Under the pieces are notes generated by a model, which worked only from the letters and a program-made list of their open reading frames with translations, ran no database searches and had not been told where the DNA came from. DNA of 35,196 nt from Gammaproteobacteria bacterium (GTDB taxonomy: Bacteria > Pseudomonadota > Gammaproteobacteria > Steroidobacterales > Woeseiaceae). The translations under genes and the position numbers were made by a program. Positions 2,563-12,144 of this stretch are shown in pieces. The DNA lies in NCBI GenBank assembly GCA_029864095.1, contig JAOTUB010000025.1, positions 1-35,196 of the forward strand, read 5' to 3'. The first letter of the stretch is position 1, and each line of letters starts with the position of its first letter.

Positions 2563-3546
2563 CTAATTTTCAGCCGTGGATATGCGCGCAACCGCATAGC
2601 CCGCGTAAACGAGGAGCAGAAAGCCGCCAGCACGTCGGCCCAGCCGCGCTTCCCCATAAAAAAAAAGCGGAATCAGCGCAACCGTCAGGCTCAATGACAA
2701 CATCAGATCTGTGATGCCGCCGGCTGGTACTTTGACCGGCCCAACCAATGCGGTAACGGGCATCACAACCAGCGTGTTGAACAGATTCGATCCCACTACG
2801 TTGCCAAGTGCAAGGTCGGACTCATGTCGCAATGCGGCAATTATGGAGGTCGCGAGCTCTGGCATGCTCGTGCCCACCGCTACGACGAAAAGGCCTATTA
2901 GGACTGGAGGCACATCGACATAGGCTGCAAGATCGACCGCACCCTCGACAGCCAGATCACCGCCGATGAACAGCAGAGCACAACCTGCTATGACGAACAG
3001 CCAGCGGGCACGGCTAGGCGTCGGTGCTATAACCAGCGGACTGTCATCGACATCCAGGAAGAACTGGTCCGTCGTACTCCGCTGGTATATTTCGAGGACA
3101 TTCGTGTACACAAAAATGCAAAAAAGAAGCAGCAGGACCACGGCCTCCGAGCGGCTGATAGTCGCGGATCCGCCTTCGAACAGACTGTCGGCCGCCATCG
3201 CAGTCACTACTGCCGTAGCGAGCAATAGTAGCGGCACTTCGCGTTTGACGAGCTGACCTTGAATCGTAATTGGCATCACGAGAGCCGCCGTTCCCAGCAC
3301 CAGGGCCAGGTTGCTGATATTGGAACCGACGACATTACCGAACGCGAGGGCGGTAACACCTTTGCTCGCACTCAACGTATTAACGATGAGCTCGGGAGCA
3401 CTGGTGCCGAATCCAACGATGGTCAGGCCGACGATCATCGGCGATACGCCGAAGTGGGTTGCGATTTCTGATGCCCCACGCACGAGCAACGTGCCGCCGC
3501 CGATTAGCAGGACAAAACCAAGCAAGAGTGTGCCAGTCGCCGACAT
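2563..3546 (-). CDS. Calcium/sodium antiporter, CaCA superfamily (YrbG-like)
   Basis: A 327-residue integral membrane cation/Ca2+ exchanger, expected to export Ca2+ from the cytoplasm in exchange for Na+ or H+. The two inverted alpha-repeats that form the ion site are clear: GFGTSAPELIVN in the N-terminal half and AVGTSMPELATS in the C-terminal half, each followed by a GNVVGSN motif. Around ten hydrophobic segments are visible, with a charged loop near the middle (DQFFLDVDDS). The ATG at 3546 has a strong GGAGGA site about 10 nt upstream. The gene follows metH after 101 bp on the same strand and precedes the CNNM/CorC gene. In other bacteria yrbG sits elsewhere, so a functional link to metH is not implied. 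Confidence 0.92.
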   Translation of the reverse strand: MSATGTLLLGFVLLIGGGTLLVRGASEIATHFGVSPMIVGLTIVGFGTSAPELIVNTLSASKGVTALAFGNVVGSNISNLALVLGTAALVMPITIQGQLVKREVPLLLLATAVVTAMAADSLFEGGSATISRSEAVVLLLLFCIFVYTNVLEIYQRSTTDQFFLDVDDSPLVIAPTPSRARWLFVIAGCALLFIGGDLAVEGAVDLAAYVDVPPVLIGLFVVAVGTSMPELATSIIAALRHESDLALGNVVGSNLFNTLVVMPVTALVGPVKVPAGGITDLMLSLSLTVALIPLFFYGEARLGRRAGGFLLLVYAGYAVARISTAEN

Positions 3547-3647: not shown

Positions 3648-6600
3648 TCAGGCCGCATCCGCAGTCCGTGGCGCATAGCCGAGATTCGGCCCAAGCCACT
3701 TTTCTGCCTCCGACACGGTGAGGCCCTTTCTTGCGGCATACGATTCGACCTGGTCCCGATCGATCTTGCCCACCGAGAAATAAACCGCATCCGGATGCGA
3801 AAAGTAGAAGCCGCTTACTGCTGCGGTCGGGTACATCGCAAATGACTCAGTCAGCCGCAATCCGATGCTGGCCTCGACGTCCAGCAGTTCCCAGAGTTTT
3901 GCTTTCTCAGTGTGGTCCGGACAAGCGGGATAGCCGGGCGCCGGGCGAATTCCCCGGTACTTCTCGGAGATCAACTCGTCGTTCGATAGCTGCTCGTCAC
4001 CGGCATAGGCCCACAAGTCGCGGCGCACGCGTTCGTGCAAATACTCGGCCGCTGCTTCGGCGAGACGATCCGCAAGCGCTTTGAGTATGATTGCGCTGTA
4101 GTCGTCGTGATCTTTTTCGAAACGCTCAACATGTTCCTCGATGCCGATTCCGGCCGTCACTGCGAATGCCCCAATGAAGTCAGCGAGACCCGTCTCGGCC
4201 GGCGCAACGAAATCGGCGAGGCAGTTCTGCCGCTGTCCCTCGGGTTTGAGTCGCTGCTGGCGCAGATGACACAGGCGCATAGTCGCACTGGCGCGCGACT
4301 CGTCTCCGTAAACCAGCAGGTCATCATGGTTGTCGCAATTCGCGGGGAAAAAACCGACTACGGCTTTGGCCTGCAGCCATCGCTCGCTGACAATTCGGTC
4401 GAGCATTGCAGTCGCGTCGGCGAAAAGGCTCGTTGCCGCCTCGCCAACTATCGCGTCGCTCAGAATACCGGGGAACTTGCCGTGGAATTCCCACGCGTTG
4501 AAAAACGGCATCCAGTCGATGTAATTTCGCAGCACGTCGAGACCGATCTCTTCGTACCTCTTTGTGCCCGTAAACGTCGGCACTGGCGGTACGTAGTTGT
4601 CCCAGTCGCAACGATGGCGACGCTCGCGCGCTTCTGTTAACGAGACCTGCGGTGCAAGACGTGATTTGTTCGCGTGCCGCTCGCGGCGACGCGTGTTGTC
4701 GTCGCGCGTTTTCTCGATAAACGCATCACGAGTTCCGGGTTCGATCAGCGCCTGCGCCACGCCTACGGCGCGGGAGGCATCCTTGACGTACACCACCGGG
4801 CCCTCGTAGTTCGGCTCGATTTTGACAGCAGTGTGCGCCGGCGACGTCGTAGCGCCGCCGATCAATAGCGGCAAGTCGAATTTCTGGCGCTGCATTTCGC
4901 TCGCGACGTGCACCATTTCATCGAGCGACGGGGTGATCAGACCCGACAGGCCAATAATGCTGGCGCCTTCGCGACTCGCCGCGTCAAGTATTTTCTCGCA
5001 AGACACCATGACGCCAAGGTCGATTACCTCGAAATTATTGCATTGCAGAACCACACCAACGATATTCTTGCCGATGTCGTGTACGTCGCCCTTGACCGTC
5101 GCCATCACGATCTTGCCATTAGAGCTTGCGACGCCGTCCTTCTCTTCTTCGATGTACGGCACGAGGTGACCAACGGCCTTTTTCATAACCCGCGCGGACT
5201 TGACCACCTGCGGTAGGAACATCTTGCCAGCACCGAACAGGTCGCCAACGACATTCATGCCGGCCATGAGCGGTCCTTCGATGACAGCAAGCGGTCGAGG
5301 CGCGACAAGCCGCGCCTCCTCGGTGTCGGCAACGACATACTCGTCGATGCCATTCACGAGCGCGTATTCCAGACGCTTGTCGACAGCCAATTGCCGCCAG
5401 GAGAGATCCTGTGCTTTGGCCTTGGCGCTGGAAGCCACGCCCTTGTAGTTTTCGGCGACCTCCAGCAATCGCTCGGTGCCATCGCTACGCCGATTCAGGA
5501 CTACGTCTTCGACCGCATCGCGCAGATCTGCTGGCAAGTCCTCATAGATCGCCAGTTGCCCGGCATTGACGATACCCATGTCCAGTCCGGCGCGTATTGC
5601 GTGATACAGGAACACGGAATGAATTGCCTCGCGCACGACGTTGTTGCCGCGGAACGAGAACGAAACATTGCTGACGCCACCGCTGACAAGAACGCCCGGC
5701 AGCACGGCCTTGATCTGACGAGTCGCTTCGATGAAGTCGAGGCCGTAGCTCGAGTGCTCATCGATTCCGGTAGCGATCGCAAAGATGTTCGGATCGAAGA
5801 TGATGTCTGCCGGTTCGAAGCCGACAACATCAGTCAGGATCTGAAAGGAACGTTTGCAGATCTCGACTTTGCGTTCGACCGAATCGGCCTGACCGTTTTC
5901 ATCGAACGCCATCACGATAACGGCTGCACCGTAGTCGCGTACGAGTTGGGCTTGCTCGACAAAAGCCGTCTCGCCCTCTTTCAGACTGATCGAGTTGACG
6001 ACGGCCTTGCCTTGCACACATTGCAGGCCCGCCTCGATGACCGACCACTTCGATGAGTCGATCATGACTGGTAATCGTGCGACGTCGGGCTCCGATGCGA
6101 TCAGATCAAGAAACGTCACCATCGCTTTTTCGGAGTCGAGCATGCCCTCGTCCATGTTTACATCGATGATCTGCACACCGTTCTCGACCTGAGTGCGCGC
6201 AACCTGGACAGCGGCGGTATAGTCATCCGCCTCGATCAGGCGCCGGAAAATTGCCGAGCCCGTAACATTGCAGCGCTCACCGACATTAACGAACAGGTCA
6301 TCAGGCCCGATATTCAGCGGCTCGAGCCCGGACAGGCGACAGTGCACAGGCAGTTCCGGCACCGTGCGTGGCGGTCGGCCGTCGATGACTTCTTTGATTG
6401 CGCGAATATGATCGGGACGCGTACCGCAGCAACCGCCGACCATATTCACGAACCCGCTTGCGGCGAATTCGCCGATCACATCAGCCATGGTTTCGGGCGT
6501 CTCGTCGTACTCGCCGAACTCATTCGGCAGCCCTGCGTTCGGGTGAGCACCAACGCGCGTATCGGCCACGCGCGACAGCTCGGCAACATACGGCCGCATG

Positions 6601-7361
6601 TCTTGCGCACCGAGTGCACAGTTGAGTCCGATCATGAACGGATTAGCGTGGCGAACCGAATTCCAGAACGCTTCACAGGTCTGGCCCGATAGCGTGCGTC
6701 CCGACGCATCCGTGATCGTCCCGGAGATCATTACGGGCAAAGTCGTTCCGGACTTCGCAAAGCTCCGTTTGATTGCAAATATCGCAGCTTTGGCGTTGAG
6801 CGTGTCGAATATCGTCTCGACCATGAGAAAGTCGACGCCGCCTTCGATCAAAGCGCATGCCGCTTCCTCATACGTCGCGACAAGTTCGGCAAAACGTACA
6901 TTGCGAAAACCGGGGTCGTTCACATCGGGCGAAATCGATGCCGTTCGGTTCGTCGGTCCGAGTACACCGGCAACGTAGCGCGGACTGCCGGCGCGAGCTG
7001 CATGCACATCGGCGCATTCGCGGGCCAGTCGAGCGGCTGCAAGATTGAGTTCGGGCACCAGGTCCTGCAGGCCGTAGTCGGCCATCGACGGGGAATTCGA
7101 ATTAAACGTATTGGTCTCGATGATGTCGGCGCCTGCATCGAGGAACTGACGATGAATCTCCTGGATTACGGTGGGCCGCGTGATCGACAGAAGGTCGTTG
7201 TTCCCCTTCAGATCCATGTGCCAGTCGCGGAACCGCTCGCCACGATAGTCGTCCTCGCCGAGACGGTAGCTCTGGATCATCGTGCCCATCGCACCATCGA
7301 GCAGCAAGATCCGCTCGTCGAGTGACTGCATCAGCGTTGCAATTCGATCATTACGTTTCAT
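3648..7361 (-). CDS. metH: Cobalamin-dependent methionine synthase
   Basis: MetH transfers the methyl group of 5-methyltetrahydrofolate through cobalamin to homocysteine, giving methionine. All four modules are present in about 1237 residues, close to the usual 1227. The homocysteine domain carries the zinc cysteines (GLNCALG near 250, GGCCGT near 315). The pterin domain begins at [11 protein letters not shown]. The B12 cap and Rossmann domain contain [12 protein letters not shown], whose His is the lower cobalt ligand. The reactivation domain carries [12 protein letters not shown], which binds S-adenosylmethionine. I place the start at ATG 7361 ([10 protein letters not shown]) because the family begins here and AAGG lies 8 nt upstream; the frame stays open 16 codons further. 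It starts 10 bp after the metF stop, so the two are an operon. Confidence 0.97.
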
Positions 7362-7371
7362 CAGGAAAACC

Positions 7372-8244
<873 letters not shown>

Positions 8245-8252
8245 TCAAGACC

Positions 8253-9137
8253 TCAGGCGGCTGCCACTTCCTGGTCGGCAGGCGATGCGACCGCCAGCAG
8301 CCACAGCGGGTTATTTACCGGAATATGTTTCGGTGGCGCGAGACGCAGGCCCGCAGCGCCACACCAGACGGCAAGCTGTTTTTCCAGCGTTGTGATGTCA
8401 CGCACATCTGACCTTATGAGCAACAGCAGACGACCGCCATTTTTCAGGATGCGGCGTGCTTCCCTGATTGCTGTCATCGGGCGCTCGGCGTCGGCAAGCA
8501 CGTCATCGAGAATGACCGTGTCGAACTCTCCGTCTGCGAACGGCAATTCGTACATATCGCCGTGGCGAAGACTGCAGTTCTCGATTCCGGCCAGCAGCAA
8601 CTCTGCGCGCGCCAGCTGCCGCGCGTCGGCATTGGTATCCACGCCAACGGCCCGCTGCGCACGTGAACCGAGCAGCTTGAGAATCCGCCCCTGGCCACTA
8701 CCGATATCGATCAGATCTCCGAGCGGCATGGCGACCGTGAGTTCGATGAGCGCGCGGTGCAGATAACGCACTGCGTCGTCTTTCTCGGGCGGTGCGAGCC
8801 CTTGCTCGGTGCGCAGGCCACACAGTTTTTTGAAATCACGTTCGTAGGCTGGCTCGTCGGTGGGCAACAGCGCGAACAAGCGCCGCCGCTGCGAAGCCTG
8901 TTCGGTATCAAGTGGCACGCGGTAATACACGAAGTGTCCGTCGCGAAATCGCTCCAGCAGTCCGGCATCGCAGAGTTGCTTCAGGTGCTGCGAAATGCGT
9001 GGCTGGCTCTGGCCCATCACCTCGGTCAACTCCGAGACCGTGCATTCGCCACGAACACACAGCGCCAGCAGGCGTAGCCGAACCGGATCGGCGAAGGCTT
9101 TCAAATGGATAATCAGCTGCTGGGTACTATTTTGCAT
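8253..9137 (-). CDS. ArsR-family regulator fused to SAM-dependent methyltransferase (SahR type)
   Basis: A 294-residue two-domain protein. Residues about 1-95 form a winged helix of the ArsR family (FADPVRLRLL, then SELTEVMGQSQPRISQHLKQL and a wing with DGHFVYYRV). The ArsR metal motif CVC is absent, so it is not a typical arsenic or metal sensor. The rest is a class I methyltransferase fold (LIDIGSGQGRILKLLG, VGVDTNADA, then ILKNGGRLLLLI). Fusions of this kind in front of methionine genes have been described in Proteobacteria as SahR, which senses S-adenosylhomocysteine; here the methyltransferase-like domain is probably the sensor (inference). ATG 9137 is chosen because the ArsR domain begins there and a promoter lies immediately upstream; the frame is open 17 codons further through AT-rich DNA. 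It precedes metF by 14 bp. Confidence 0.88.
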   Translation of the reverse strand: MQNSTQQLIIHLKAFADPVRLRLLALCVRGECTVSELTEVMGQSQPRISQHLKQLCDAGLLERFRDGHFVYYRVPLDTEQASQRRRLFALLPTDEPAYERDFKKLCGLRTEQGLAPPEKDDAVRYLHRALIELTVAMPLGDLIDIGSGQGRILKLLGSRAQRAVGVDTNADARQLARAELLLAGIENCSLRHGDMYELPFADGEFDTVILDDVLADAERPMTAIREARRILKNGGRLLLLIRSDVRDITTLEKQLAVWCGAAGLRLAPPKHIPVNNPLWLLAVASPADQEVAAA

Positions 9138-9146
9138 AAGATAAAT

Positions 9147-9166
9147 ATATAAATATTTATTTATAT
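9147..9166. promoter_or_regulatory. Inverted-repeat operator candidate for the ArsR-type regulator
   Basis: ATATAAATA (9147-9155), a 2-bp TT spacer and TATTTATAT (9158-9166) form a perfect 9-2-9 inverted repeat. It overlaps the predicted -10 box and the proximal spacer of the regulator's own promoter. ArsR-family dimers bind such short-spaced AT-rich palindromes and repress by occluding RNA polymerase. Autoregulation of the whole regulator-metF-metH unit is the natural inference. Confidence 0.6.
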
Positions 9167-9176
9167 TAAAACTCAA
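9148..9176 (-). promoter_or_regulatory. Predicted sigma70 promoter for regulator-metF-metH
   Basis: On the minus strand a -35 like TTGAGT (9176-9171) is followed by a 17-bp spacer and a -10 like TTTATA (9153-9148). The predicted transcription start falls near 9141, only about 3-5 nt before the ATG at 9137. No Shine-Dalgarno sequence lies in front of this ATG, which fits a nearly leaderless message. The surrounding 40 bp are strikingly AT-rich compared with the rest of the window. Prediction by eye only. Confidence 0.5.
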
Positions 9177-9241
9177 ATAGCATAGCATACGCGGGCCCCT
9201 TCAAACAGCCGCCACCAGGCATCCCGCCCAAAAACGCTCGC

Positions 9242-10681
9242 CTACTTCAGCTTGTCCTTAAGGATGGCATTGACCTGGCCGGGGTTGGCTTTGCCGCCAG
9301 TCTCTTTCATGACCTTACCGACGAAGAAACCGATCAGCTTTTCCTTGCCGGATTTGTACTCGGCGACCTGGCCGGGATTCGCTTCGATGACCTGGTCGAC
9401 GATCGCCTCGATCGCCGAGCTGTCGGTGATCTGTTTGAGGCCCTTGGCGTCGATGATCTCGGCGGCACTTCCCTCGCCCGCCCACATGGCCTCGAAAACC
9501 TCTTTGGCAATCTTGCCCGAGATCGTGTTATCCGCAATACGGTCCAGGAGCCCCGCGAGCTCTGCCGCGCTAATGTTGCTCGCCTCGATTCCTGCGCCGC
9601 CGCGCTTCAGTGCACCAATAAGGTCGCCGATGACCCAGTTCGCGACAATCTGCGCGCTGGCGTCCGTTGCCGCGACAACGGCTTCGAAATAATCGGCGAG
9701 TGCCCGGGTTGAAACCAGAATGGCTGCGTCGTCGGTTTTCAGCCCGTATTCGGCGGCGAATCGCTGCTGCTTGGCATCCGGCAGTTCGGGCAGCGACTCG
9801 CGGACTGCCTCGATATACGCGGCGTCTATCTCAACCGGTAACAGGTCCGGGTCCGGGAAATAGCGGTAGTCGTTCGCTTCCTCTTTCGAACGCATCGGCC
9901 GCGTTTCGTCTTTGTCCGAATCGTAAAGTCGTGTCTCCTGCACCACCTTGCCACCATCCTCGATCACTTCGATCTGACGATCGATCTCGAAGTTGATGGC
10001 TTTCTCGACAAAGCGGAATGAGTTCAGGTTCTTGATCTCGGTGCGCGTGCCGAGCTCCTCCTGCCCGCGTGGCCGCACCGATACATTCGCATCGCAGCGG
10101 AAAGAACCTTCCTGCATGTTGCCGTCGGAGATGCCGAGATAGCGCACGAGCGTATGAATCTTGCGCATATAGGCGACGGCGTCTTTGGCCGAGCGCAGAT
10201 CGGGTTCGGAAACGATCTCGAGCAGTGGTGTGCCCGCCCGGTTCAGATCAATGCCCGACGACTTCGCGAGGCCCTCGTGGATAGACTTGCCGGCATCTTC
10301 TTCGAGATGCGCACGCGTGATGCCGATGCGCTTGTGGTTGCCATCCGCGTCGACGATAAACAGCTCGCCATGTTCGACAATCGGCAACTCGTACTGACTG
10401 ATCTGGTAGCCCTTGGGAAGATCGGGGTAGAAATAGTTCTTGCGTGCAAATACCGAACGTTTCGCGACAGTCGCGTTCACGGCCAGCCCGAATTTGGTCG
10501 CCATGCGCACGACTTCCGCGTTGAGCACCGGTAGTACGCCGGGGTAGCCGAGGTCGACGAGACACGCCTGTGTATTGGGCTCGGCACCATAAGCTGTGGA
10601 GGCGCCCGAAAAGATCTTGCTCTTTGTCGCCAGCTGCGCATGGATTTCGAGGCCGATAACAACTTCCCAGGAGCCACTCAT
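9242..10681 (-). CDS. gatB: Asp/Glu-tRNA amidotransferase subunit B
   Basis: GatB recognises misacylated Glu-tRNA(Gln) or Asp-tRNA(Asn) and activates the acyl group by phosphorylation in the GatCAB complex. With the start at ATG 10681 it has 479 residues, the usual length. The N-terminus [13 protein letters not shown], the kinase-like core with [11 protein letters not shown] and [18 protein letters not shown], and a C-terminal YqeY-like tail (about 330-479, ending [12 protein letters not shown]) are typical. The start overlaps the gatA stop as ATGA and has GGAGG 7 nt upstream; an in-frame upstream start would intrude further into gatA. Last gene of gatC-gatA-gatB. Confidence 0.97.
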
Positions 10682-12144
10682 TGGAAGTCCTCCGGGCAGG
10701 CCTGATGCCAACTCGACAATTGCTCATAGTTGTGCCCACAGCGCAAGAGCGTTTCCTCGCCCCAGTGTGGCGCGACGAGATGCAGGCCGACCGGCAGGCC
10801 GTCCACGAAACCGCAGGGCGTCGACATGCCGGGCAGGCCGGCAAGGTTCGCACCGATCGTGTAGATGTCGTTGAGGTACATCGTGATCGGGTCGTCGATC
10901 TTGTCACCTAGTCTGAACGCGGCAGTTGGCGACGTCGGACCCGCAATCACGTCTACTTCGGCAAATGCCTTGTGGAAGTCATCCGCAATCAGATGCCGTA
11001 CCTGCTGTGCCTTAAGGTAGTAAGCATCGTAGTAGCCGGCAGACAAAACGTAGGTGCCGGTCATGATGCGGCGTTTGACCTCCGCACCGAATCCCTCGCC
11101 TCGGCTGCGGCAATAGAGATCCAACAAATCTTCAGGGTTTTCGGCGCGGTGCCCAAAGCGCATGCCATCAAAGCGTGACAGATTGGACGAGCATTCGGCC
11201 GGAGCAACCACGTAGTAGGTCGGTACCGACAGATCGAGATTCGGCATATCGACTTCGGTAAGGATTGCGCCTTGCGATTCGAGTACTGCCAATGCCTCTT
11301 TGACCGCGGCACCGCATTGCTCGTCGAGCCCTTCGTCGAAGTGCTGCCGCACAATCCCGACACGCAGGCCCTTGAGTGATCCTGACAACGCTGCAGTGTA
11401 ATCGGCAACCGGATGCTCGATGCTGGTCGAGTCGCGCTCGTCAAAGCCCGCCATTACGCCGAGTAACAGCGCGGCGTCCTCGCTTGACCGAGTGATGATG
11501 CCCGCCTGATCCAGGCTCGACGCGAACGCGATCATTCCGTAGCGCGACACGCGCCCATAAGTAGGCTTCAATCCGACCGTTCCCGTGAGTGCGGCGGGCT
11601 GCCGGATCGAGCCGCCCGTGTCGGTACCGGTCGCCGCCGGGGTCAGGCGCGCCGCGACCGCTGCGGCCGAACCTCCGGATGAACCGCCAGGCGAGCAGTC
11701 GAGACGCCACGGATTCTTGACCGGGCCGAAGTAGCTCGTCTCGTTGGAAGAGCCCATCGCGAACTCGTCCATATTGGTCTTGCCGAGCACAACGGCACCA
11801 GCTACTGCCAGCCGTTCAACAACCGTCGCATCGTACGGCGAAACAAAATTCTCGAGCATGCGCGAACCGCAGGTCGTCAGGACACCCCGCGTGCAAAAAA
11901 TATCTTTGTGGGCGATTGGCAGACCGTTCAGGACGCCGGCGGCTCCGGCAACGCGCGCAGCGTCGGCGCGCTTCGCGGCCGCGAGTGCCTGGTCGCCAGT
12001 GACAGTGATAAACGCGTTGAGCGCCTGCTCGTGTGTTTCGATTCGTGCGAGCAGTGCCTCGGTCAACTCGACGGACGAGAAGTCACCGCGCTCGAGACCC
12101 GCGGCAAGCTGCGTCAAAGTCTGTGCATGCAAATCCAGGGCCAT
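10678..12144 (-). CDS. gatA: Asp/Glu-tRNA amidotransferase subunit A (glutaminase)
   Basis: GatA is the amidase subunit that releases ammonia from glutamine for transamidation. It has 488 residues, normal for the family. The Ser-cisSer-Lys catalytic triad is intact: Lys80 in GLPIAHKD, Ser155 in SPGGSSGGS and Ser179 in [13 protein letters not shown]. The ATG at 12144 lies 3 bp after the gatC stop, and its TGA overlaps the gatB ATG by 4 bp, so the three subunits are translationally linked. Presence of GatCAB suggests that at least one of Gln-tRNA or Asn-tRNA is made indirectly in this organism. Confidence 0.97.

Follow-up and report, generated by a model that had tools for sequence, protein, structure and literature searches.

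A conserved palindromic box is the predicted operator of a SahR-type regulator–metF–metH operon in a Woeseiaceae gammaproteobacterium

SahR belongs to the ArsR family and has a 20-bp palindrome as its motif; the core targets given for it in PMC4239095 are sahR, ahcY, metH, metH2, metF and metK. The same paper describes SamR of the Xanthomonadales with the motif ATC-10 nt-GAT, which is shared by the gamma-type SahR motif, and it argues for S-adenosylmethionine (SAM) as the SamR effector from a regulon that holds no SAM-cycle genes except metK. S-adenosylhomocysteine (SAH) is the reported effector of Desulfovibrio SahR, as cited in PMC4239095 and PMC8877191. The latter also reports that the highest sahR expression was found in an sahR deletion strain, and it lists 'sahR (1023)' for Ensifer aridi, a figure taken here as the gene length; the corresponding regulator gene on pSymB of Sinorhizobium meliloti is 1023 bp long. 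A further described protein is ArsR-M of Brevundimonas sp. M20, an ArsR/methyltransferase fusion heading the metRFHH operon. According to PMC10190100, it methylates As(III) and binds its own promoter in a gel shift, with the palindrome CTTTATATAAAG. The words SahR and S-adenosylhomocysteine do not occur in that paper, and ligand binding may therefore not have been distinguished from catalysis. An earlier note on the DNA analysed here had described the sensing role of the fused methyltransferase domain in SahR-type regulators as poorly resolved. More had been reported than this suggests, namely SAH as the effector of Desulfovibrio SahR and the Brevundimonas fusion; the domain may be a sensor, an enzyme or both.

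The DNA analysed (the window) is a stretch of 35,196 nucleotides from a gammaproteobacterium of the Woeseiaceae (assembly GCA_029864095.1, contig JAOTUB010000025.1). Like the described SahR loci, it carries an ArsR-family regulator beside metF and metH and a 20-bp palindrome before the regulator gene, and the described control of sahR, metF and metH agrees with it by operon position only. Unlike SahR elsewhere, the host has a single boxed operon detected, and its metK–ahcY region, which holds usual but not required SahR targets, is without a box; moreover, in this gammaproteobacterium the box is of the alphaproteobacterial type. The locus also resembles that of Brevundimonas ArsR-M, as described in PMC10190100, in that the fusion gene comes first in a met operon and an AT-rich TTTATA/TATAAA palindrome lies in its own promoter. 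That protein was interpreted there as an arsenite methyltransferase, and the likeness rests on the description, not on sequence. The context and operator of Brevundimonas ArsR-M, as described, look like those of SahR.

The palindrome is the inverted repeat ATATAAATA-TT-TATTTATAT, which was located at 9147–9166 as the earlier note had placed it, with perfect 9-bp arms and a 2-nt spacer; read on the minus strand, the strand of the operon, it is ATATAAATAAATATTTATAT. In the whole window, perfect repeats with arms of at least 9 and a spacer of 0–6 occur at just two places, here and at 467–485 (CGTTGCCGTGACGGCAACG), the latter within a TamB-like ORF. Around the box, 45 of 52 bases are A or T, and mononucleotide shuffles of these 52 bp gave a perfect 9-2-9 repeat in 0.36% of trials, so the repeat is unusual by composition alone, and it is conservation that settles the question. 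In the host assembly (G000; 3.83 Mb, 253 contigs, 95.8% complete), the repeat pattern with up to three mismatches matched 9147–9166 alone (two overlapping registers, both strands), and the control, the same pattern read backwards, gave one match per strand.

The gene directly behind the repeat (8253–9137, minus strand) encodes a SahR-type regulator of 294 aa, assigned by its domains, tree placement and residue conservation. Both halves of the fusion of an ArsR helix-turn-helix (HTH) with a methyltransferase domain, as read by the earlier note, were matched by domain models: a winged ArsR HTH at residues 17–62 (PF01022, 5.3e-12) and a SAM-dependent methyltransferase fold at residues 143–238 (Methyltransf_11, PF08241, 1.2e-19). 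Orthologues align from the ATG at 9137 on the minus strand, which is taken as the start; a longer ORF from 9188 was rejected as the regulator start because that start is not conserved. The SAM-pocket residues D144, G146, G148, G150 and D167 are each at least 95% conserved among 101 SahR-side proteins, and the SAM/SAH motif is intact. At alignment column 106, R is the commonest residue (40 of the 101). In a PDB sequence search at E ≤0.001, each of the 50 matches spans one domain only, and the AlphaFold model is weak over the methyltransferase half, with a mean pLDDT of 62.8 and values below 50 at residues 120–187.

Two features of the HTH set the host's family (f1) apart. None of the cysteines of the window protein is universal among the 101 SahR-side proteins (C27 in 84, C188 in 70, C56 in 67, C32 in 50 and C259 in 40), whereas all three of C27, C32 and C56 are present in 43 of 54 f1 proteins versus 0 of 47 other SahR-side proteins; C32 by itself is found in 50/54 and 0/47, respectively. 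With the three-cysteine set restricted to f1, a metal or thiol input is conceivable. In addition, the recognition helix carries Q at residue 50 in 53 of 54 f1 proteins, whereas all 45 others have R there; at position 8 of the box, 21 of 54 f1 sites have G versus 34 of 45 others. This pattern possibly reflects a change of specificity, and it is a lead rather than proof because a single ancestral change could have produced it.

Downstream on the regulator's strand lie metF (7372–8238; methylenetetrahydrofolate reductase, 288 aa; PRK09432, 412.6 bits against a cut-off of 382) and metH (3648–7409; cobalamin-dependent methionine synthase; PRK09490, 2122 bits). The metH ORF start overlaps metF, and the PRK09490 match begins at residue 19; the true start is probably a little further downstream. 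The gene after the regulator is metF in 82/82 testable orthologous loci, and metH follows metF in 75/75, in agreement with the earlier proposal that the three genes form one unit. Beyond metH come a Na/Ca exchanger gene and then a CNNM/CorC gene; the ORFs at 2563–3546 and 1178–2503 had been considered as adenosine kinase and ahcY candidates and were rejected on these domain matches. Upstream of the regulator and on its strand lies gatB–gatA, with gatB at 9242–10711, and gatB was found upstream on the regulator's strand in all 12 relatives' loci inspected as well (L040–L051). No terminator was found between gatB and the regulator in the window, and read-through from gatAB into the regulator operon is possible.

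A search with the regulator gave matches at E <1e-40 in 112 of 149 genomes, a count that includes the host's. Upstream sequences came from 87 of these 112 genomes, as 30 loci and 60 stretches (including 3 repeats), plus the loci L047 and L048. After removal of duplicates, the dataset held 89 distinct upstreams, 55 from f1 (L047 and L048 assigned by record title) and 34 from elsewhere in the order; L052 (a fragment), L055 and second copies of identical upstreams were excluded. With a symmetrised matrix trained on the same set, the best box match reached 10.8–32.7 bits in 89/89 upstreams, and mononucleotide shuffles reached at most 8.3. As such a test is circular, cross-validation was added, in which a matrix built from either group was applied to the other. 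The results showed that 86 of the 89 upstreams scored above the 99% level of Markov shuffles (32/34 in other families, 54/55 in f1) and that 77 scored above the Markov-shuffle maximum (28/34 and 49/55, respectively). The weakest boxes, for example those of L125, L158, L048 and L154, are degenerate.

The f1 consensus box is ATATAAAkAAATmTTTATAT, in the register of the 9-2-9 repeat, and the consensus in the other families of the order is ATATAAAGATATCTTTATAT. Pairing between the arm positions lay within 0.04 of the independent-column prediction, and this lack of covariation beyond the make-up of the columns is as expected for a dyad bound by protein. Outside the order, 7 of 13 loci of the class carry the box (24–33 bits); those without it comprise two SahR-side and four SamR-side loci. 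The upstreams of L289 and L297, SahR-side loci from one family of the same class, showed no recognisable box or clear substitute. The earlier note had held that loss of the repeat before orthologues that are themselves kept would speak against its proposal; the repeat proved to be conserved in the orthologue upstreams. On this evidence the box is a predicted, conserved DNA operator rather than a chance repeat.

Relatives with 31–40% identity were also found in 11 records of a plasmid collection, including S. meliloti pSymB, Shinella, Sphingomonas and Methylobacterium, and these named alphaproteobacterial proteins align across both domains. All four alphaproteobacterial loci that were read have the box upstream (23.0–32.7 bits) and metF downstream. 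The box is ACATAAACATATCTTTATGT before the ArsR-type gene–metF pair of pSymB and ATATAAAGATATCTTTATAT before the gene–metF-...-metH series of Sphingomonas parapaucimobilis, and the Methylobacterium and Shinella loci are likewise boxed; the SahR label of these alphaproteobacterial loci rests on gene size, context and box. In a quick maximum-likelihood tree of 72 of 107 proteins, a SamR-type clade was separate (fork support 100, branch 1.35) and the window protein fell on the SahR side.

A distant homologue from Lysobacter maris (L055; 37% identity), which aligns over both domains, is encoded next to metH. In the clade that it forms with L295, L296, L298 and L299, the box is absent from all five loci (best scores ≤5.1), and ATC-N10-GAT is present instead in four of the five. 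We infer that this clade, of which L055 is the sole named member, is SamR. Although PMC4239095 gives this motif for gamma-type SahR, ATC-N10-GAT occurs in only three of the 89 boxes with 10-nt flanks (L130, L147 and L155) and is absent from the window's box, which thus resembles the alphaproteobacterial form more closely. SamR membership of the window protein was rejected, given that its box is without ATC-N10-GAT, that the L055 clade has no such box and that the protein lies outside this clade. Box, operon context and tree placement thus agree on a SahR-type regulator, as the earlier note had suggested, and not on the related SamR.

The proposed overlap of the repeat with the −10 element was not borne out. 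At the conserved position in f1 promoters there is an extended −10, TGC-TATGCT, at 9187–9179 on the minus strand (TG at 9187–9186, hexamer at 9184–9179), which lies upstream of the repeat. A TANNNT starting −20 to −15 from the box was found in 54 of 55 f1 upstreams and, with the extended TG, in 42 of 55; in shuffles, TANNNT (TG not required) was found in a mean of 4.0 and a maximum of 9 of 55. A consensus scanner detected no sigma-70 promoter within 9050–9300. Transcription is predicted to start about 7 nt past the −10, near 9172, which would place the box at about +6 to +25. In the other families the spacing between −10 and box differs, and in L162 and L163 a −10-like sequence follows the box; such variable spacing fits a repressor able to act from several positions.

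The sequence ATTTAT directly after the box (9141–9146, minus strand) is also conserved in f1 (columns 20–25: A 55, T 89, T 98, T 84, A 100 and T 100%), and at some loci its final AT belongs to the start codon. The TTTAT of the box recurs in it 8 bp further on, and it may be either a third half-site or a signal in the leader. None of five types of Shine–Dalgarno-like 4-mer was found before the regulator start in the 55 f1 loci (9137–9146 being the leader in the window), and the f1 regulator leader is AU-rich and seems to have no Shine–Dalgarno sequence.

Other boxes were searched for with a sequence-only model built from 69 boxes. In the own genome, at E ≤10, the window's box was the only one detected; as the assembly is about 96% complete, a box may have been missed. 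The earlier note had asked whether ahcY, metK or metE carry the repeat. In the host genome metK and ahcY are adjacent, and no box was detected in their regions; metE itself was not found in the host by a search that was positive in 10 of 14 control genomes. A metK search gave a match in 38 of 40 genomes, and 30 metK loci were examined, 22 from f1 and 8 from others of the order. None of the 22 f1 loci and one of the other 8 (L232, 18.0 bits) had a box, and the remaining 29 loci scored ≤2.8. With a single detected box and a single detected methionine synthase, the switch controls one operon in the host, as far as the searches show.

Among the box-model matches listed for related genomes, L272, from another family of the order, has a perfect box before metK, and in L273 another regulator of this kind is preceded by a box. 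In L274 (family f8), two adjacent boxes lie at 1986–2033 between a metF-like ORF, which covers the N-terminal part of MTHFR in 144 aa, and a gene for a 315-aa protein with a pterin-binding domain; this double box may be a second SahR target. The further matches were at L275 (23.1 bits, inside a gene start), L276 (21.3 bits, ahead of an ORF of 237 aa with no Pfam match), L277 (16.3 bits, before a metallo-beta-lactamase-fold gene), L278 (20.0 bits, near an aldo-keto reductase gene) and L279 (8.8 bits). No methionine gene was seen among the ORFs scanned beside L276–L279. These five matches are taken as chance or uninformative, although four of them score within the range of true sites; the boxes of 16–21 bits without a methionine gene at L276–L278, from three same-genus genomes, mean that the regulon may be wider there.

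The reading that we favour, with a probability of roughly 0.78, is that the regulator is a SahR-type autorepressor which would be released by SAH and would govern the regulator–metF–metH operon; binding, repression, effector and direction are all predicted. A dimer of the ArsR/methyltransferase protein would bind the 20-bp box just past the extended −10 and block initiation or promoter escape, with the methyltransferase-fold domain serving as the SAH receptor. A rise in SAH would cause the dimer to leave the box, so that more MetF and MetH would be made; MetH, the only methionine synthase detected, and MetF, the supplier of methyl-folate, would then allow homocysteine to be re-methylated. The metK–ahcY pair would stand outside this switch in the host. 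Repression and the response to SAH are carried over from the cited SahR papers and are thus argued by analogy.

Another reading leaves operator and regulator as they are and makes SAM the effector, a co-repressor as suggested for SamR, so that the operon would be shut when SAM is plentiful. It gains from the fact that the only box detected in the host lies at the metF–metH operon and not at ahcY: ahcY is a core SahR target elsewhere according to PMC4239095, and its position outside the regulon weakens the argument for SAH from regulon content, while for SamR the same source drew its case for SAM from a regulon poor in SAM-cycle genes. The pocket residues, too, would suit either ligand. The phylogeny points the other way, since the window protein stands apart from the SamR-type clade and its closest named relatives are SahR-side; the box is without the ATC-N10-GAT motif, and metH and metF are core SahR targets in that source. 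We therefore regard SAM as an unlikely effector. Less likely still is a role of the protein beyond that of a SAH sensor, either because its methyltransferase domain is catalytically active, for instance on arsenite, or because the HTH has a metal or thiol input. PMC10190100 does report both promoter binding and methyltransferase activity for the Brevundimonas fusion, although binding of a ligand may not have been told from catalysis there. The SAM motif of the window protein is intact, and models of arsenite methyltransferases and metalloregulators match its two halves, the arsenite methyltransferase model (PRK11873.1) far under its cut-off, with 39.3 bits against 263. The joint occurrence of C27, C32 and C56 in most f1 proteins fits a metal or thiol input, but no cysteine of the window protein is kept throughout the SahR side and the three-cysteine set is absent outside f1. 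Nor was an arsenic gene seen among the nine window ORFs scanned.

Two further explanations deny the repeat a role as a protein site. As the box follows the −10, it is probably transcribed, and the leader can fold (−5 kcal/mol), which speaks for an RNA hairpin. This folding hardly stands out from that of shuffled sequences, 23 of 200 of which did as well (z −1.2), the arms pair no more than independent columns would predict, and the position of the box relative to the start codon shifts among relatives in the order; for a SAH or SAM riboswitch, Rfam gave no match at the gathering score in 10 loci, including the host's own sahR, metK and ahcY. A leader hairpin is thus very improbable. The AT-rich local sequence speaks for a chance palindrome, but that explanation is refuted, and we give it hardly any weight: the box is kept in orthologues down to 35–38% protein identity and in alphaproteobacteria, and most flanking columns are not.

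The preferred SahR-type reading makes the box a sound but largely ordinary find, a regulator of known kind that very probably controls its own gene together with metF and metH. A more far-reaching proposal, speculative and in our view improbable, is that in the Woeseia-type family SahR became a private one-operon switch on the only methionine synthase and was remodelled, by Q50 with a relaxed G at position 8 and by three HTH cysteines adding a metal or redox input. With ahcY uncoupled, such a switch would read the methylation state (SAM versus SAH, perhaps turning SAM over) plus redox, and not SAH breakdown.

Among the papers listed in searches of the open-licence PMC literature, none dealt with SahR in Woeseiales. 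The minimal cassette of one regulator, one box and two enzymes would suit work on the role of the fused methyltransferase domain, and the analysis suggests that the arsenic interpretation of such a protein in Brevundimonas deserves a check against SAH. For the host and its relatives, a clade of Woeseiaceae type that is globally distributed in marine sediments according to PMC7451513, these findings would extend SahR-type control, with its predicted operator and promoter geometry, to Woeseiaceae-type gammaproteobacteria.
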